From positions 1 to 34,957 of the forward strand of contig JALSUU010000082.1 in NCBI GenBank assembly GCA_027071075.1: DNA of 34,957 nucleotides. Reading direction: 5' to 3'. Positions within the stretch are counted from its first letter, which is position 1, and each line of letters opens with the position of its first letter. Source of the stretch: Sulfurimonas sp. (GTDB taxonomy: Bacteria > Campylobacterota > Campylobacteria > Campylobacterales > Sulfurimonadaceae). The notes under the pieces were generated by a model. That model did not search any database and was not told the DNA's origin. It worked only from the letters and a program-made list of their open reading frames with translations. This document shows positions 439 through 20,070 of the stretch, one piece after another. The translations under genes were made by a program, and so were the position numbers.

Positions 439-948
439 CTAGTTTTTCTCCCCAAAAATCAATCTATCAAGTGAAAACTTTCCAGCACCTTGAGTCAAAA
501 GAACGAGTAAAAAGATGATGTAGTATAGTGGCATCTCAAATCCATTTTGTAGCGTCACAATAGTCCCCATAACCTGTGTGCCATTTATCCAAGGGTCTAC
601 TACTTCACTACCCGCTTGCACCATTGCGAAACCATTGACACCATGAACAGTTGCAATCGCTACTAACATAATCACGATAAGTGGTATAGATATAGCACGC
701 GTTAAAAGTCCTAAAGTCAAAAGAACCACTCCACCTACTTCTGTACTTGCTGCCATATACGCATTCAGCGTTGGAAAAGGAATTCCCATAGAACCAAACC
801 ACATCGCAACAGAATCAATATCTGCCCACTTCATCATCGCAGGAGCATAAAAACTATATGCCACTATCAAGCGAACAGCAAGCAAACTCACCGATTTTCC
901 ATACTCACTTAAACGCGTAAACTCTTTATATATATCTTTGACACACAT
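439..948 (-). CDS. DoxX family membrane protein
   Basis: A 169-residue protein of the DoxX/DoxD-like family. It has four hydrophobic segments (about residues 20-40, 60-85, 86-110 and 135-155) and family hallmarks: RLIVAYSFYAPAMMKW near the N-terminus, the amphipathic SVAMWFGSMGIPFP loop, and GGVVLLTLGLLTR before the third helix. It acts in the inner membrane; DoxX proteins are linked to thiol/redox functions, but the reaction is not established for most members. They often accompany DUF692/DUF2063 RiPP loci (for example in Neisseria). Here the gene is about 2.5 kb away from such a locus, with two plus-strand chemotaxis-type genes between, yet its promoter (979-1010) has the same unusual layout. 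GAGGAG at 955-960 is the ribosome-binding site. A decayed gene follows. Confidence 0.85.
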   Translation of the reverse strand: MCVKDIYKEFTRLSEYGKSVSLLAVRLIVAYSFYAPAMMKWADIDSVAMWFGSMGIPFPTLNAYMAASTEVGGVVLLTLGLLTRAISIPLIVIMLVAIATVHGVNGFAMVQAGSEVVDPWINGTQVMGTIVTLQNGFEMPLYYIIFLLVLLTQGAGKFSLDRLIFGEKN

Positions 949-1137: not shown

Positions 1138-1434
1138 ATGCAAATTACTCATACGAAAATTGGTAATCTTTTAACTATAGATATCACTGAACATATAACG
1201 GGGATTCAGGAAGTTAGTGCTATTAGAACAGTTATACAAGAAAACAATGGATTTGATACTATAAAACTCAATATTGTGGATGCATTTGTTATTCCATCGG
1301 CACTCATAGGGTATCTGATGAAATTGACTAATATTGACAAAAAAAATATTTCTATCATTGCGCATCAAAAAGAACTAAATCAATTACTAATTGATCTTGA
1401 GCTTGATCAACTTTTTAGATTAAACCGAGGATAA
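1138..1434 (+). CDS. STAS-domain protein (anti-sigma-antagonist-like)
   Basis: A 98-residue soluble protein with the fold pattern of a STAS domain: beta strands at about 10-16 and 41-46, the stretch [11 protein letters not shown] (residues 50-60) in place of the SpoIIAA phosphosite loop and helix, then [23 protein letters not shown] as the last strand and helix. Ser54 is where the phosphorylated Ser of the family would be; the preceding Asp of the usual D-S pair is absent. The stop codon is one base before the ATG of the chemoreceptor at 1436, so the two are almost certainly co-translated. Role unknown; it may scaffold or report on receptor signalling. Assignment is by pattern, with no search. 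Confidence 0.65.
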
Positions 1435-1435
1435 G

Positions 1436-3406
1436 ATGAGTACATTTACTAAAAAAACTTCAATCAGTATGAAGATTCATATTCCTCTCGTAGCTTCTAT
1501 GGTTTTAGGCTTTGTTATGGTGGTTTTTATCGCTACTAGCAGTACAGACAAGGTAGAAGAGAATATCTATCAACAAGAGACTCTATCTATACAAAACTAT
1601 ATAGATGAAGCATTAAAAGAGAAATACTCTGTTGGTCTTACAAATGCAATTATGCTCTCAAAAAATGAAGTGCTTCTTGAGTCTTTAGCAGAAAACAACA
1701 AAGCAATGGCACTCACAGAAGCAAAAAAGATTGTGAAAGCCTTTAAAGATGGCACAAAATTTAAAAATGTCAAAATTCACATCCATGATAAAAATGTTCA
1801 CAGTTTTTTAAGAGTTTGGAAACCAACAAAAAATGGTGATGATCTTAGTGGGTTTAGAGCTACTATTTTAGAGGTAAAAAGAACTCAAAAACCTCTTGTA
1901 GCTATAGAGGTTGGAAGAGCAGGTCCTACTATTAGAGGTTTATCTCCAATGATAAAAGATGGTAGTTATATTGGTTCAGTAGAGTTTATGCAAGGTTTTA
2001 ACTCTATAGTTAAAGACACAAAAAAAACTATCAACTCCTCAACTCTTGTGCTCTTAAACAAAGATGCAGAATCAATTGCATCCCTTTACAAAGGTGCAAA
2101 CCAAACAAGAGTGGCAGGTTTACTTGTAGCACAAAAAGATGCAACAATTGATAAAAGATTTGTACAAGAGTTAGCTGGAAAATCATTACAAGATATTAAA
2201 AATGGTATTGTAATCGAAAACTACTTTGTGCGTTCAATCCCTATGAAGGATTTTAAAGGAAATGTTATAGGAGAGATAGTTGTTGGGAAAGACCTTAAAA
2301 TTGTACATAAAGCAGTAGATATTGCAACTAATTCTTTAGTGACACAACTTATTGCTATGGCTCTTATCGATTTTGGTGTACTTCTTATTGTGATATTTAG
2401 CATCAGTAAGCTTGTCAACACTCCTGTGCGTAATCTACTTGATGTTGTAAAAGATCTCTCAAAAGGAAAAGGTGACCTTACAAAGAGACTTCCTATCAAA
2501 TCCAATGATGAACTAGGAGAGGTTAGCTTTTATATCAATGAATTTATCCAAGTAATCCAAAATTTAACAAATGACATTAAAACTACAGCAGAAAAAAATG
2601 CAAAACTGAGTCAAGCTATCTTAAAAAATTCGAATCGACTTGATGCTATTTCAGAGAATCAACTTGGTTTTGTCAATAAATCAAATATTTTAACATCTCA
2701 AGCAAAAGATGATCTTGATATATCAGAAGAGCTTGCAAACAAAACTTCTCAAGATGTTATAAATAGCTATGGTGTTCTTGAAACATTAGAAAATGCAAGT
2801 ATAGCAGTTACTCAGATGGTAGAAGAAGATACTGATAAAGAGCGAGAATTAGCTGATAAAATTAGCTCTTTAGCAACTCAAGCTAATGAGATTAAAGATA
2901 TCCTCAATATCATAAAAGATATAGCAGATCAAACAAACCTTCTAGCCCTAAACGCCGCCATAGAAGCAGCACGCGCAGGTGAGCATGGTCGTGGATTTGC
3001 TGTTGTTGCAGATGAAGTAAGAAAACTTGCAGAAAAAACTCAAAAAAGTATTGGTGAGATTGATGCTACTGTTATGGTCGTTGTTCAAAATGTTCAAGAG
3101 ATTTCAGGAGAAATGAATCAAAATAGCAACAATATCAACGCACTAAGTAATCAAACAAACAAAATGATAGAGACTCTTGAGAAATCTAAAAATGTAACAC
3201 TCATAACAATAGATGCTTCAAAAGAGTCATCACAAAAAACAGTATTTATAGGTCATAAAGTCAAATCTCTTTTCGATGTAATGCAAGAGACAATGAAAGT
3301 TTCGCAAAATACTAAAAAGTTGTCCTCAGAACTTGAAAACTTAGGAAGAGAACTTGAGATTAGCAGTAAGTCTCTAAATAATAAACTTAGTGAGTTCAAA
3401 AGTTAG
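1436..3406 (+). CDS. Methyl-accepting chemotaxis protein with dCache sensor
   Basis: A 656-residue transmembrane chemoreceptor. TM1 covers about residues 13-32. The periplasmic sensor (33-300) looks like a double Cache domain of the dCache_3 kind: it contains [19 protein letters not shown] followed by GDDLSGFR and then [18 protein letters not shown]2 is about 303-322, HAMP about 323-375 ([22 protein letters not shown]), and the signalling hairpin tip is about 497-530 with [20 protein letters not shown], near-invariant in the family. It would pass ligand occupancy to CheW/CheA and so to the flagellar motor. No C-terminal CheR-binding pentapeptide is seen; the protein ends NNKLSEFKS. The ligand cannot be told from sequence. 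It is coupled to the STAS gene upstream and converges on the DUF2063 gene. Confidence 0.93.
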
Positions 3407-3482: not shown

Positions 3483-4187
3483 CTAAAGCGTAAGTATATT
3501 TTCACCGTGAAAGTGTTCCAAAATAGGTAAAAGGATTTCAAGGAGTTCTTCATTCTCTATCTCATACACCTCAGCAATCTTCTCTATACTCTGCATCGTT
3601 GATAGATTTGGCGTTAAAGAGAGTAAAAATTCCTCTATAAAAGGCGTAATTTCCTCATAAAGGACTTCTTCACTTTTCGCATTATAGTAAAAAAGAATAG
3701 TAAACTCACCACTCTCAAAAGCCTCTGGATTTGAATCAAAATCAGGATGATGCACTGGGTAAGAGAAGTGTCTGATATTTGCTTCTTTTGAAAAAGCATA
3801 ACTCTTTTGTAGTGAAAATGAGCTCTTTGTATGGTCGCTATACTTTTGCATAAACATCTCTATCTCTAAAAACTCAAACTCCAACAAATCAGCTAAATAG
3901 GGCATATCTAAATCATTTTTCTCTATTAAAAAAGCTTTAAACTCTCCACTCACTCTCCAAAGGATAGGTGTCTTTGCACCTACTTTTAAAAACTCATATA
4001 TGAGTCTATCAAAAGTTTCCTCACTCACCATCTTTTTAAAACGAGGATAGGCTTTCTCAAACACTTCTAAAAAGCGGTAGTAGACTAACTCGGTATAGAC
4101 TTCTATCGCCTCACTTGGCATCGATACTTCTTCTTGTTTTGTGATAGTGTTGATAAATCGTTTTTGTATACTCTGTTCTAGTTTCAT
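3483..4187 (-). CDS. bufC: DUF2063 / BufC-HvfC-type partner of an MNIO enzyme
   Basis: A 234-residue protein with the arrangement of the DUF2063 family: an N-terminal helical domain (about 1-95) with MPSEAIEVYTELVYYRFLEVFEKAYPRF and a C-terminal domain in which the chain is read in FYYNAKSEEVLYEEITPF. In bufferin and HvfABC loci this partner binds the DUF692 enzyme and presents the RiPP precursor to it. The gene overlaps the DUF692 gene by the 4-nt ATGA junction (4184-4187), so translation is coupled, and the gene order precursor-DUF692-DUF2063 is the standard one. The stop codon lies about 75 bp from the end of the convergent chemoreceptor. The role is taken from family and context; N-terminal domain confidence is good, the C-terminal part is divergent. 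Confidence 0.85.
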   Translation of the reverse strand: MKLEQSIQKRFINTITKQEEVSMPSEAIEVYTELVYYRFLEVFEKAYPRFKKMVSEETFDRLIYEFLKVGAKTPILWRVSGEFKAFLIEKNDLDMPYLADLLEFEFLEIEMFMQKYSDHTKSSFSLQKSYAFSKEANIRHFSYPVHHPDFDSNPEAFESGEFTILFYYNAKSEEVLYEEITPFIEEFLLSLTPNLSTMQSIEKIAEVYEIENEELLEILLPILEHFHGENILTL

Positions 4188-5011
4188 GAGTAAATCTTCT
4201 GCATATATCTGTACTCTTGCATCATTGATGCATAATCTGGAACATCATTATCTCTCTCTAAAAGCAAGGGTTTATCTACCCCACCCTCTTTGACATACTC
4301 AAGCAAATCCCATACTGCATCTTTTACTTTTTCACCATGTGTATCTATGAACAGATCCTCGCTCACTTCCATGTGTCCAGCTATGTGCATGTAAGCGATA
4401 TTTTCATAATCAATTTTGTCTAAAAAAGCTTTAGGGTCAAACTTATGATTGTGCGAATTTACAAAAACATTGTTCACATCTAAAAGAAGTTTTGCACCAC
4501 TTCTTTTTATAACCTCATTAATAAAGTCGGTCTCTTCCATCTCAGCATAAGGAACATAATAGTACGAAGCATTCTCTAAAGCAATACTTCGTCCAAGTAT
4601 ATTTTGCACTGCATCAACTCTCTCACAAATATAGTTAACCATATTTTCAGTCATAGGGAGTGGGAGTAACTCATACATCTGTTTGTTATCAAGGGTGCAA
4701 AAAGAGAGGTGTTCGGAGTAATACTCTATCTCATACTCATCTAAAAAACTTTTTAAATCGGTGAGAAATTTTTTATCCAAAGGAGTATTTGAACCAATTG
4801 AAAGGGATAAGCCATGTGCGACTATCTCAAAATCACTCACAATTCGTTCAAATGTTTTTCGGTGTTTAGCATGCATGTACATCCAGTTTTCAGGAGTAAT
4901 CTCAAACCAAGATGGCTTGAAATCATTTGCATACACATCATGCATAAACTCTGTTCTTAAACCTAGACCACAAGAGTATGGAGTCTTTAAAAGCAGAAAA
5001 TTTTGAGACAT
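4184..5011 (-). CDS. bufB: DUF692 multinuclear non-heme iron oxidase (BufB/HvfB/MbnB family)
   Basis: A 275-residue TIM-barrel enzyme that would convert Cys residues of the neighbouring precursor into oxidised heterocycles (thiooxazole or oxazolone/thioamide in studied relatives). Family metal-site residues are visible in order: H66 in VAHGLSLSIG, E100-H101 in YYSEHLSF, E146-N147 in ALENASYY, D178 with N180/N181 in LLLDVNNVFVN, H187/H189, H209 and H213 in YMHIAGH, D223 and H225 in IDTHGE, E252 in LLLERD. I take the start at ATG 5011: the protein then opens MSQNFLLLKTPYSCGLGLR, as in the family, 4 nt after the precursor stop and preceded by AGTAGAGAT. An in-frame extension up to 5146 is possible but would run through the precursor gene. 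Cytoplasmic. Confidence 0.92.
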   Translation of the reverse strand: MSQNFLLLKTPYSCGLGLRTEFMHDVYANDFKPSWFEITPENWMYMHAKHRKTFERIVSDFEIVAHGLSLSIGSNTPLDKKFLTDLKSFLDEYEIEYYSEHLSFCTLDNKQMYELLPLPMTENMVNYICERVDAVQNILGRSIALENASYYYVPYAEMEETDFINEVIKRSGAKLLLDVNNVFVNSHNHKFDPKAFLDKIDYENIAYMHIAGHMEVSEDLFIDTHGEKVKDAVWDLLEYVKEGGVDKPLLLERDNDVPDYASMMQEYRYMQKIYS

Positions 5012-5015
5012 ATCT

Positions 5016-5210
5016 CTACTTGCTACCGCACTTAGTTTCAGCTTTATCGCCACCACATTTTGAAGTAGGTGCTTTTTTATCGCTACCACATTTACCAGAA
5101 GCACCACACTTACTACCACCACACATACCCATTGAAGCACAACCACTTGCCATCGTCATAACACCAAGAACTGATGCACCTACTACTAACTTTTTAATAT
5201 CTTTTCTCAT
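5016..5210 (-). CDS. bufA: Cys-rich RiPP precursor with KCG motifs (bufferin/HvfA type)
   Basis: A 64-residue secreted peptide. Residues 1-23 form a signal peptide (MRKDIKK then a hydrophobic stretch) ending at MASGC, so Cys24 could be lipidated. The mature part is Cys, Gly and Lys-rich with KCG at C35, C41, C52 and C61 plus MCGG at C30, spaced by polar linkers. This matches precursors of DUF692 enzymes: export signal plus repeated (E/A/S)GKCG-like cores, as in HvfA, more than the DUF2282 type of bufferin. The DUF692 gene begins 4 nt after its stop. AAAGGAT provides the ribosome-binding site. The likely product is a modified periplasmic or lipid-anchored metal-binding peptide, most probably for copper; the metal is inference. 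Without modification it could still serve as a simple metallothionein-like protein. Confidence 0.85.
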   Translation of the reverse strand: MRKDIKKLVVGASVLGVMTMASGCASMGMCGGSKCGASGKCGSDKKAPTSKCGGDKAETKCGSK

Positions 5211-7705: not shown

Positions 7706-8002
7706 CTATTTTCCCCCACATTTCCCTGCGCCACATTTCATCTTTGCTGGAGCTTTTTTCTCTCCACCACATTTTTTTACTATTTTTTCTGCACCACCGC
7801 ATTTACCAGCACCACACTTTTTCGCTACTTTTTCTGCACCGCCACATTTACCAGCACCACACTTCATCTTCTTCTCAGATTTTTCAGAAGCACCACCACA
7901 TTTACCTGCACCACACTTGCTTGATGCACTTAAACTAACTGCACCTAGACCTGTAAAAAGAGCTGCTCCAAGAAGTAAAGCTGTAAGATTTAACTTTGAC
8001 AT
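7706..8002 (-). CDS. Orphan Cys-repeat precursor with KCGAGKCGG modules (HvfA-like)
   Basis: A 98-residue secreted protein. Residues 1-27 are a signal peptide (MSKLNLTALLLGAALFTGLG, cleavage probably after SLSAS). The rest is Cys-Gly-Lys-Ala: four copies of KCGAGKCGG (residues 29-37, 47-55, 62-70, 89-97) and one lone KCGG (77-80), nine Cys in all, joined by Lys/Glu-rich linkers. The motif is that of DUF692-dependent precursors of the HvfA type, and resembles the precursor at 5016-5210. No DUF692 or DUF2063 gene adjoins it; the pair at 3483-5011 could act in trans. Its promoter has the same direct-repeat layout as that locus. RBS AAAGGA. The alternative is an unmodified periplasmic metallothionein-like metal sponge. 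Confidence 0.82.
   Translation of the reverse strand: MSKLNLTALLLGAALFTGLGAVSLSASSKCGAGKCGGASEKSEKKMKCGAGKCGGAEKVAKKCGAGKCGGAEKIVKKCGGEKKAPAKMKCGAGKCGGK
7712..7918 (-). repeat. Four coding repeats for KCGAGKCGG
   Basis: Repeat units lie at 7918-7892, 7864-7838, 7819-7793 and 7738-7712, separated by 18 to 54 bp of Lys/Glu/Ala coding sequence. The DNA of the units is nearly the same (complement of the recurring CCACCACATTTACC and GCACCACACTT stretches), so copy number could change by slippage or recombination. Confidence 0.8.
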
Positions 8003-17172: not shown

Positions 17173-18468
17173 GTGAACAATAAAGAATCTCAAAAAGTTC
17201 TAGATAGAAGAGACTTTTTCAAGAAAACAGCTGCATTATCAGTAACTGCTATTGCTGGAACATCCCTTGTTTCATCAAACGCAAGAGCAGATGATCCTGC
17301 GATTATGAACAATGTACCGTGGGGTCAAAAGTGGGGGGATCCAGTAACAGCAAACCGTTATGGAGTTCCTTCAAAATATGAGCATAATGTATTAAGAAGA
17401 AATACTAAGCTACTAGCTTCAGGTAACTTTAGAGCTTCTATTGCCGTTGCTCCTATTCAAGAGTCTATGGGAATTATCACTCCAAATGGACTCTTTTTCT
17501 CAAGAAGTCATGGTGGAGTAGCACATGTTGACCCTCATGAATACCGTTTGATGATTCACGGTTTAGTGGAGAAGCCTATTGTCCTTACACTAGAGCAACT
17601 CAAGCGTTACCCAAGTGTAACGCGTACTCACTTCATTGAGTGTCCAGCAAATGGTGGACAAGAGTGGAGAGGGCCACAGTTTAACTCTATTCAATTTGCA
17701 AAAGGTTTTATGTCTTGTGCTGAGTGGACTGGTGTATATCTTAAGACTATTTTAGCAGACTTAGGACTCAAACCAGAAGCACAATGGATGCTTGCTGAGG
17801 GTTCTGATAACTCTGAAATGGGAAGAACTATTCCTATTGATAAGGTTCTTGATGATGCTATGATTGTATGGGGACAAAATGGTGAAGCATTGCGTCCAGA
17901 GCAAGGATACCCAGTGCGTATTCTTCTTCCAGGTTGGGAAGGTAACTTATGTGTGAAATGGTTAAAGCGTTTAGAATTCTCTACTGAGCCTTGGTACTGT
18001 AAAGAAGAAACTTCTAAATATACTGACCTTAAGCCTACTGGTAAAGCTATACAACATTTCTATGCAAATGAAGTAAACTCTACAGTAACTTCTCCATCTC
18101 CTGAGATTGACTGGACACACCTTAAAGATGGTGATATTGTAGAGATTGAAGGTCTTGCATGGTCGGGAATGGGTACTATTAAAGGTGTAGATTTATCATT
18201 TGATGGTGGTAAAAACTATGTTGAAGCTAAGTTAAAAGGTCTAGTACTACCTAAATCTTGGACGCGTTGGTCTTACATTCATACATACAAAAAAGGTGAT
18301 GTTTTACAACTTACATCTCGTGCAATGGATGATGCTGGTTATATTCAACCAACTATTGACCAAGAAGTGAGTGTAATGGGTGTTGAAGCTGTCTATCACA
18401 GAAATGCAGTAGAGACTTGGGAAGTAAATGCTAAAGGAGAGGTAAATCATGTTCAAATTAGATCGTAA
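17173..18468 (+). CDS. soxC: Sulfane dehydrogenase molybdenum subunit SoxC
   Basis: 431 residues of the sulfite-oxidase family. With SoxD it oxidises the SoxY-bound sulfane sulfur in the periplasm, so that thiosulfate yields more electrons. A Tat signal is visible (RRDFFKKTAALSVTAIAG). The molybdenum ligand is Cys157 in HFIECPANGGQEWRG. Other family motifs: RSHGGVAHVDPHEYRL, EGSDNSEMGRTIP, LPGWEGNLCVKWLKRLE and the C-terminal dimer domain with WSGMGTIKGVDLSFDGG. It starts with GTG 17173, overlapping an out-of-frame ATG-TGA at 17171; AAAGGAG is placed for the GTG. It overlaps soxD by 20 nt. The family also includes SorA; the following soxDYZ genes decide for SoxC. Confidence 0.95.
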   Translation: MNNKESQKVLDRRDFFKKTAALSVTAIAGTSLVSSNARADDPAIMNNVPWGQKWGDPVTANRYGVPSKYEHNVLRRNTKLLASGNFRASIAVAPIQESMGIITPNGLFFSRSHGGVAHVDPHEYRLMIHGLVEKPIVLTLEQLKRYPSVTRTHFIECPANGGQEWRGPQFNSIQFAKGFMSCAEWTGVYLKTILADLGLKPEAQWMLAEGSDNSEMGRTIPIDKVLDDAMIVWGQNGEALRPEQGYPVRILLPGWEGNLCVKWLKRLEFSTEPWYCKEETSKYTDLKPTGKAIQHFYANEVNSTVTSPSPEIDWTHLKDGDIVEIEGLAWSGMGTIKGVDLSFDGGKNYVEAKLKGLVLPKSWTRWSYIHTYKKGDVLQLTSRAMDDAGYIQPTIDQEVSVMGVEAVYHRNAVETWEVNAKGEVNHVQIRS

Positions 18469-19594
18469 ATTAATAATTACAGCTTCTACAGCAGCTGCAG
18501 TTGCACTGTTTACACTTGGTTGTGGTGGTAGCACTGGTACAACAGAGAGTAAAAAAGCAAGTAAAATCAGTATCGATGGTGGTGTGTCTTACCCTGTTGT
18601 TAATGATAAAACAGGTCCTTACTATGTAAACCCTCAAGTGGCGCAAGATGCTCCAAAGATTTATAATGGTCGTGTTCCTACTGCTAATGAGTTAAAAGCA
18701 TGGAATAAAGATATTATGCCAGATGGAACAGGTTTACCAGAGGGTAGTGGTTCTGTTGAAGATGGTGAAGAGATTTATGATGCAAAATGTGTTATGTGTC
18801 ATGGTGACTTTGGTTCAGGTGGTGGTGGATATCCAGCACTCTCTAAAGGGAATGCATATGACCTACAAAAGACTTTAACTAACAATAGATGGAAAGACCC
18901 AGATGCTGATGGTCCGACTCGTGAATTTGGTTCATACTGGCCACAAGCTAGTACACTTTTCTGGTACATTAAAGATGGTATGCCTCATCCATTCTCTAAA
19001 TCATTGAGTGATGATGAAGTTTATGCTTTAGTTGCATATGTTTTAAATATCAACGAGATGGAGATTGATGGTGTAGAAGTTGATGATGAGTATGTTCTTG
19101 ATCGTGAGAAATTTTTAAAGATTAAAATGCCAAATAGAAATGGTTTTGAGCCAAATATAGATGGTCCAAATGCTCTTCCTGGTGTTCGTGCTTACTATGC
19201 TAATGCAAAAAACTTTGGTGCTCAGAATCTTAATCAAGGTGCTGTTCGTTGTATGAAAGATTGTCAAAAAGCGTCTGTGAAAACAAAAAGAATCAACGGT
19301 GGTATCACAGGTTTCTTACCTCCAATGAGTGATGTAAGAGATTTACCTGCAGTCAAAGAGGTAAAAGTTGATCCTAAAGAAGTATACAAAAATGCTTGTG
19401 CTATGTGTCATGATTCATATTTAGCTCCAGGTAGTGACGAGTGGGCTGGTTATGTAGCAGAAGGTATGGATACAGTGTATGCAAAGGCCATTAAAGGTAC
19501 TCAGGGTGGAATGCCAGCTAAAGGTGGAACTAGTCTTTCAGATGCAAACTTCAAAACAGTTGTTGATTATATCACTACTGGTAAAGTAAAATAA
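18449..19594 (+). CDS. soxD: Di-haem cytochrome c SoxD
   Basis: 381 residues. Electron-accepting partner of SoxC. Two haem-binding sites: C114-V-M-C117-H118 (KCVMCHGDFGSGGGG) and C317-A-M-C320-H321 (NACAMCHDSYLAPGS), with likely Met axial ligands in DGMPHPFSKSLSDDE and GGMPAKGG. The N-terminus (KLIITASTAAAVALF then TLGC) looks like a lipoprotein signal with lipobox TLGC, so Cys25 may anchor the protein to a membrane, whereas SoxC uses a Tat signal. A third cysteine pair CMKDC (about 268-272) lacks a His and cannot be a haem site. Starts inside the last codons of soxC behind GGAGAGG, so they are translated together. Confidence 0.93.
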   Translation: MFKLDRKLIITASTAAAVALFTLGCGGSTGTTESKKASKISIDGGVSYPVVNDKTGPYYVNPQVAQDAPKIYNGRVPTANELKAWNKDIMPDGTGLPEGSGSVEDGEEIYDAKCVMCHGDFGSGGGGYPALSKGNAYDLQKTLTNNRWKDPDADGPTREFGSYWPQASTLFWYIKDGMPHPFSKSLSDDEVYALVAYVLNINEMEIDGVEVDDEYVLDREKFLKIKMPNRNGFEPNIDGPNALPGVRAYYANAKNFGAQNLNQGAVRCMKDCQKASVKTKRINGGITGFLPPMSDVRDLPAVKEVKVDPKEVYKNACAMCHDSYLAPGSDEWAGYVAEGMDTVYAKAIKGTQGGMPAKGGTSLSDANFKTVVDYITTGKVK

Positions 19595-19608
19595 ACAAAG
19601 GAATAATT

Positions 19609-20070
19609 ATGGAAAGAAGAAAATTTTTAGGTATGGGTTTAGGTGCATTAGCTTTAGCTGTTGTACCTGCAAGCGTTCAAGCGGAAGATTGGAGAAAAGC
19701 AAAGCCAGCAGTGTGGACAGCAAAAACTGTTGATGATGCAATCAAAGCAATGTATGGTGATGTGAAGCTTATTGAGAGTGGTGTAACTATTTCTACACCT
19801 GATGTTGCAGCAAGTGGTGGTGCAGTTCCAATCAATATTAAATCAGATATAAAAGCAAAAACAGTAGCAGTATTTCAAAATGCTGACCCAGAGTCAACTG
19901 TAATCGTTTTTGATATTAACAAATACTCTATAATTGATTTTGACATCAAAGCAAAACTCAAGTCTGTTGGTGATCCTGTAACTGTAACAGCAGTAGTTGA
20001 AGGTCAAGATGGAAAATATTATATCGGTAATAGAACTCTTGATGTAGCACTTGGTGGATGTGAAGGTTAA
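19609..20070 (+). CDS. soxY: Sulfur carrier protein SoxY
   Basis: 153 residues. SoxY carries sulfur intermediates on a C-terminal Cys. Tat-type signal at the start (MERRKFLGMGLGALALAVVP, cleavage likely after Ala25). The mature domain has ISTPDVAASGGAVPINIKS, typical of SoxY. The C-terminus is LGGCEG: Cys151 is the carrier residue, but the usual GGCGG arm has Glu in the fourth position of the motif. The gene begins 14 nt after soxD, and soxZ follows. A second, canonical SoxY may exist elsewhere with soxXAB, as in related Campylobacterota. Confidence 0.93.
   Translation: MERRKFLGMGLGALALAVVPASVQAEDWRKAKPAVWTAKTVDDAIKAMYGDVKLIESGVTISTPDVAASGGAVPINIKSDIKAKTVAVFQNADPESTVIVFDINKYSIIDFDIKAKLKSVGDPVTVTAVVEGQDGKYYIGNRTLDVALGGCEG

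Follow-up and report, generated by a model that had tools for sequence, protein, structure and literature searches.

The locus described here belongs to the captophorin/oxazolin kind, as a variant particular to its lineage. Within the window (the whole stretch of Sulfurimonas DNA that was analysed, 34,957 nucleotides), a KCG precursor gene, P1, an MNIO (DUF692) enzyme gene and a DUF2063 gene form a real three-gene unit, not a chance arrangement. We think it likely that this unit is a cassette of the captophorin/oxazolin type, and that maturation by the MNIO is an optional addition to a KCG-based copper-handling system which also functions in the enzyme's absence. The features on which the argument rests are collected in Table 1.

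Table 1. Genes and sites of the window, with the basis of each assignment
Feature	Position	Strand	Basis
P1, precursor, 64 aa	5016-5210	-	lipoprotein-like signal, then MCGG, SKCG, GKCG, SKCG, TKCG
Lipobox A-S-G-Cys24 within P1	5139-5150	-	lipobox pattern and codon position
MNIO (DUF692) enzyme, 275 aa from ATG	4184-5011	-	PF05114, 317 bits
DUF2063 partner, PME1/HvfC-like	3483-4187	-	PF09836, 43.3 bits (cut-off 27.2)
P2, second KCG precursor, HvfA-like, 98 aa, nine KCG, ordinary signal peptide	7706-8002	-	NF050137, 36.4 bits (cut-off 19.5)
HvfX-family DoxX membrane protein	439-948	-	NF050144, 132.5 bits (cut-off 80)
Decayed FMN glutamate-synthase-like gene remnant	200-427 (lower end approximate)	-	visual comparison of its translation with the intact L116 gene
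Exported Lactamase_B_2 metallo-hydrolase, adjoining P2	6763-7668	+	PF12706, 61.3 bits
SoxC, cytochrome c and SoxY-like protein in tandem	17173-20070	+	SoxC 578 bits (over 420); SoxY-like 88.8 bits (under 125)

The three genes follow one another on the minus strand in the order P1-MNIO-DUF2063, which places the precursor directly upstream of the MNIO. Only 4 nt (5012-5015) separate P1 from the MNIO gene, which in turn overlaps the DUF2063 gene by ATGA (4184-4187); AAAGGA precedes the P1 start. P1 is not a chance reading frame, because five of the 200 family genomes have a P1-type precursor in front of an MNIO, and because the change between the G000 and G156 copies is mostly synonymous (seven synonymous and one non-synonymous codons of 64). 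A first-pass annotation had predicted a tightly coupled RiPP-type operon of an MNIO and a KCG precursor, and the trio is indeed there, at 3483-5210. The DUF2063 partner that it named is also real, but lies almost wholly outside the interval 4184-5210 to which it had assigned the locus. Its attribution to a sulfur-oxidising campylobacterium agrees with the SoxC match and with the nearest named relatives of the organism, which include Sulfurimonas sp. MAG313. The P1 lipobox, P2, HvfX and the mostly MNIO-independent KCG proteins of the family were absent from that annotation.

P1 had been described as a secreted precursor of 64 residues. Its length and four KCG motifs stand, but its export signal resembles that of a lipoprotein more than a plain secretory one. 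Of its six cysteines, four belong to KCG motifs, one to MCG(G) and one, Cys24, to the lipobox. The lipobox pattern (PS51257) was matched by all five P1-type precursors (defined by an E value under 1e-15 among the 200 family genomes), but not by P2. The Ala at -3 is a weak form of the lipobox and counts against this assignment; even so, P1 is likely a lipoprotein. No Pfam or NCBIfam family model, the HvfA model included, matched P1. All five genomes with a P1-type precursor also have an MNIO, in contrast to those with P2-like proteins; P1 thus goes with the enzyme, and P2 is independent of it.

The MNIO exceeds the PF05114 cut-off of 25 bits many times over. It scored 334.2 bits against the NCBIfam HvfB model, under the equivalog cut-off of 360, and the DUF2063 protein scored 91.4 bits against the HvfC model, under the equivalog cut-off of 142; both scores, like the lack of a family match for P1, count against a captophorin/oxazolin-type reading. 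The methanobactin enzyme model MbnB gave 53.6 bits, under its equivalog cut-off of 325. Its conserved residues are H66, H101, E146, D178, H209, D223, H225, E252 and D254. Those that we take to be metal ligands, placed by analogy with MbnB together with the alignment, are conserved with the proposed base Asp254 over 101 MNIO rows, bar one odd and one truncated row, and the metal site is thus intact, as the first-pass annotation had said. The nearest solved structure is 3bww (E 2.6e-55), which belongs to an MNIO-PME1 locus (PMC13097082).

In a tree of 65 rows, the Campylobacterota MNIOs lie on one side of a branch with support of 99/94, recovered in 100% of 200 bootstrap trees, and the P1-type enzymes form one clade (100/100). 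The phylogenetic check that the annotation had proposed came out in its favour: the enzyme groups with MNIOs beside KCG precursors and DUF2063, apart from non-peptide enzymes. Entry of the MNIO from another phylum was considered and rejected, the Campylobacterota MNIOs being one clade. Because the family needs two to three label changes on this tree, loss of the MNIO or its transfer within Campylobacterota, or both, may have occurred.

The kept metal site and the grouping of the enzyme with other KCG-linked MNIOs of Campylobacterota make conversion of Cys to 5-thiooxazole the best reading of its chemistry, and published chemistry backs a captophorin-type interpretation (PMC13097082, PMC13419390). 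The three-gene set probably makes a copper-binding modified peptide. In the mechanism that we propose, the MNIO-DUF2063 pair would recognise P1 through its signal peptide, prior to export, and would carry out a four-electron oxidation of the cysteines in the KCG/MCG units of P1, yielding 5-thiooxazoles. Exported P1, as a likely lipoprotein, would then be anchored in the envelope via Cys24, where it would hold Cu(I). The cassette would sit inside an older neighbourhood of KCG protein P2, HvfX and flavoenzymes, which most KCG-bearing members of the family appear to keep without an MNIO.

How general the enzyme is can be judged from an identical set of 200 family genomes searched with every query. 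An MNIO was found in 16 of them; DUF2063 was found in 14, all MNIO-positive, and in none of the 184 MNIO-less genomes. P2-like KCG proteins are far more widespread (114 of 200). Every one of the 16 MNIO genomes also carries a KCG protein, and 98 of the 114 KCG genomes have no MNIO. The curated NF050137 model matched in 64 family genomes, 51 of them MNIO-less, and in none of 14 controls. Because KCG proteins are so common without the enzyme, MNIO maturation looks optional in this family, as judged from gene content. Most of the genomes are drafts, and some MNIO absences may be gaps. As a general explanation, however, assembly gaps were rejected: the independent gene DUF2063 is absent too, and 20 of the 98 MNIO-less KCG genomes, assembled in one or two contigs, agree. 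Such contiguity is not reached by any of the 16 MNIO genomes. HvfX, counted strictly over its cut-off as five controls match weakly, occurs in 92 family genomes, and 87 of these have a KCG gene (odds ratio 52, p 1e-25, kinship uncorrected). HvfX goes with the KCG protein, not with the MNIO.

Across the class (249 genomes), NF050137 matched in 14 genomes and an MNIO was found in 13 (11 over cut-off); seven of the 14 had no MNIO, five of them in the window's family and two in one other. A survey of complete genomes put precursors of this kind without an MNIO at 67 of 2583, which it calls 'very few' (PMC12452194). The Sulfurimonas-containing family is a concentrated exception to that survey and is not named in its main text, so far as that text is available. 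Among the literature matches listed, there was no account of MNIO or KCG proteins from Campylobacterota.

The same locus exists with and without the cassette. In the MNIO-less genome G001 the genes run Gluconate_2-dh3, Glu_synthase-type flavoprotein, HvfX, HD-GYP-like, metallo-hydrolase, KCG, DUF234 and hydrolase. The window matches this order, with two genes (1138-3406) and P1-MNIO-DUF2063 placed between HvfX and the HD-GYP gene. HvfX and P2 each lie 2.5 kb from the cassette; P2 orthologues are present in MNIO-less genomes. In MNIO-positive G191, the cassette is inverted and placed elsewhere in the same neighbourhood. We compared 40 MNIO-less KCG loci, taken from 40 of the 98 genomes by score and contig room. 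HvfX lies within 5 kb of the KCG gene in 35 of them, and in 23 it is directly downstream, on the same strand and within 300 bp. A KCG protein of copper type, kept with and without its supposed maturase, thus offers a natural series that asks what the modification is for. Because the same gene stands in the same place with and without the enzyme, the contribution of 5-thiooxazole to such a protein becomes testable between close relatives.

Two side observations concern this neighbourhood. The flavoenzyme-like remnant at 200-427 has one in-frame stop and is then truncated; relatives carry an intact gene after HvfX (the L116 counterpart scores 205.6 bits with PF01645), and it is intact in G191 and in several MNIO-less relatives. 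In loci L108-L147, from MNIO-less genomes, the KCG-HvfX pair is often followed, in operon-like fashion, by Gluconate_2-dh3 and GMC oxidoreductase genes.

KCG repeats also occur on or beside copper-handling proteins. KCG lipoproteins are neighbours of P-type ATPases that carry heavy-metal domains, or of RND pumps together with HMA proteins, in both MNIO-less and MNIO-positive genomes; all 12 rows inspected match the lipobox pattern, two of them being the same G039 gene. In MNIO-less G055 and G049 and in MNIO-positive G009, a cytochrome c with a KCG tail is flanked by an ArsR regulator and an ArsP_1-type permease, and in G055 this permease is an SO_0444 Cu/Zn exporter (394 bits, over 300). All three genomes show the gene order of the SO_0444 efflux cassette for Cu/Zn (ArsR, then cytochrome c, then permease), which in Nitratiruptor is strongly induced by copper and cadmium and was described without mention of KCG (PMC10092412). 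What sets the present versions apart is the KCG repeats at the end of their cytochrome c. A DsbD_2 membrane protein of MNIO-less G035 (L242 1871-2815, minus strand) has KCG repeats at its end and adjoins a COX1-type oxidase gene. Several of these lipoproteins and tailed proteins pass the curated model named 'HvfA family RiPP metallophore', a label that rests on the KCG repeats and is open to question where the known maturase is missing. We lean, by a small step, towards the view that, in the Sulfurimonas-containing family, the KCG repeat forms a copper-handling thiol module sufficient in itself, which would occur as free-standing exported proteins alongside HvfX, as lipoproteins by CopA/CusA pumps or as tails carried on cytochrome c and DsbD-like proteins. 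This module would function free of MNIO chemistry in most KCG genomes, and the MNIO cassette with its lipoprotein-like P1 would be an optional upgrade docked into an older locus.

Five of the KCG lipoproteins (L048 1489-1857, L250 3920-4300, L251 5079-5501, L053 1492-1875 and L064 95-472) share an NMFDG...KKKKNIL.QMR core. Most of these loci lie beside P-type ATPases or CusA-type pumps, which were not seen in L064. The KCG-tailed cytochromes found between ArsR and an ArsP_1/SO_0444-type exporter are at L240 1253-3045, L241 196-1976 and L055 994-2739; a further one, at L243 1965-2495, lies near a multicopper oxidase.

Does the enzyme make the same modified unit as its known relatives, and does it act on P1 only? 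The first-pass annotation noted that the cores of P1 differ from EGKCG, and suggested that the modified unit might differ too. The cores are indeed SKCG, GKCG, SKCG and TKCG, but they carry no pointer to a different unit: the residue at the E place is usually A, D or S in Campylobacterota, among sequences chosen by KCG content, and FonBC fully modifies DGKCG and makes a single modification in AKCGA and in GKCGT (PMC13097082). We therefore rejected the step from non-EGKCG cores to new chemistry. An argument for a different unit, and a point against the captophorin/oxazolin reading, comes from the enzyme itself, in which Thr20 and Asn255 replace Arg16 and Phe250 of EGKCG-type enzymes (FonB numbering; positions matched by motif and aligned rows, FonB's own sequence being absent from the comparison). 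Asn255 is lineage-wide: this place holds Asn in 24 of the 26 Campylobacterota rows with a residue there, whereas 61 of the 64 Pseudomonadota-set rows (one of the set being from Chlamydiota) have Phe. Position 20 is Arg in 15 of 27 Campylobacterota rows. In FonB, Phe250 contacts the KCG flanks and Arg16 pairs with the E of EGKCG, so that both govern residues around the Cys, yet mutants at either place still formed 5-thiooxazole (PMC13097082). Because of those mutants, we take Thr20 and Asn255 to adapt the enzyme to KCG motifs of the A/D/S type. Asp254, the base, is retained along with every metal ligand, and a different modified unit seems improbable to us. Arg at position 20 goes weakly with acidic residues before KCG (mean 0.41 in 14 loci against 0.19 in 12 without it; p 0.005, kinship uncorrected; L166 was dropped, its precursor lacking). 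A more serious possibility, towards which we are nonetheless somewhat disinclined, is that the one MNIO-DUF2063 pair serves both precursors and matures P2 in trans. A single MNIO was found in the window's own assembly (94.8% complete, 285 contigs), P2 has its nine KCG motifs and passes the HvfA cut-off, its signal peptide is of the LxLGAxL type of MNIO-linked precursors, and its start region is near-identical to that of P1, AAAGGA included. Several precursors per MNIO pair are, moreover, on record (PMC12452194). However, the persistence of P2-like proteins in the 98 MNIO-less genomes implies that P2 does not need the enzyme, and P1-type genomes own a separate, dedicated precursor.

The preferred reading, of a KCG system that works with or without the MNIO, also has to account for the orphan KCG genes of MNIO-less genomes. 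They could be decaying leftovers of lost RiPP pathways, as the survey proposes for its rare cases (PMC12452194), and some P2-like KCG matches do contain a stop. Yet dN/dS was 0.08-0.22 in all seven usable pairs (10 of 42 sequences), and the KCG gene is retained in nearly all HvfX genomes; orphan KCG genes are kept under purifying selection, which makes decay very improbable. An LxLGAxL-like signal-peptide core is present in 35 of 42 orphans, 18 of 23 MNIO-linked precursors and 20 of 246 background ORFs. Since in HvfA the Sec signal serves as the leader (PMC13419390), the common core suggests that orphans descend from, or share, the MNIO-linked precursor type. Could another enzyme, such as a flavoenzyme beside HvfX, modify them instead? 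Within 5 kb of the KCG gene in the 40 MNIO-less loci we counted GMC oxidoreductase 24 times, Gluconate_2-dh3 16 times and a Glu_synthase-type flavoprotein 10 times, but none of these is present in nearly all loci, and flavoenzymes also lie beside KCG/HvfX in MNIO-positive G191, implying that they do not replace the MNIO. The sites themselves speak against such a maturase. The residue after the Cys is small at a mean of 0.99 of sites in linked precursors and 0.87 in orphans, and 12 of 42 orphans against 1 of 26 linked precursors have a charged residue there, as a relaxed site predicts. Because FonBC does not process a Cys followed by a charged residue (PMC13097082), orphans look free of this constraint; the sets were chosen by KCG content, which partly builds in conservation of K and G, and the comparison is therefore indicative. 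We regard a second maturase as unlikely, and the orphan proteins as presumably unmodified.

Among known systems, the closest are the captophorins/oxazolin (HvfABC-HvfX of Haemophilus influenzae) and fontiphorin (FonABC). The window shares with them a Lys-Cys type KCG precursor with a Sec signal upstream of MNIO and DUF2063, the metal and base residues and a nearby HvfX. It differs in lacking EGKCG and an NPF...GYM-like region after the signal peptide, in having the P1 lipobox and Thr20/Asn255, and in its HvfB and HvfC scores. The gene-level features of a captophorin (MNIO-PME1) cluster are present: an MNIO with its metal site, an adjoining DUF2063 and an upstream Cys-rich precursor with predicted export. 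Of oxazolin/HvfABC proper, HvfX is nearby, but the adjacent precursor has no EGKCG and both enzyme scores fall under their cut-offs. As a candidate leader, an NPF...GY-type stretch follows the signal peptide in at least 25 of 39 Pseudomonadota-set precursors, variants being seen by eye among the 14 misses; the pattern matched none of the 24 linked or the 44 orphan precursors of Campylobacterota, nor any of 7 from Bacteroidota. NCBI names NF050137 (KCGExKCG_twice, HvfA family) as an oxazolone/thioamide-modified RiPP metallophore, and P2, like many orphans, scores above the curated cut-off, yet most positive family genomes are those without an MNIO. The bufferins Buf1 and Buf2 of Caulobacter likewise combine MNIO, DUF2063 and an exported Cys precursor, and a lipoprotein is predicted for about 16% of Buf2 (PMC12452194). 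In contrast to these, neither P1 nor P2 matches DUF2282, KCG repeats replace the Buf Cys patterns and the BufB model gave 278 bits, under 310. Finally, the Lactamase_B_2 metallo-hydrolase that adjoins P2 is recurrent beside KCG genes and also stands beside the MNIO cassettes of G191, G175, G009 and G145.
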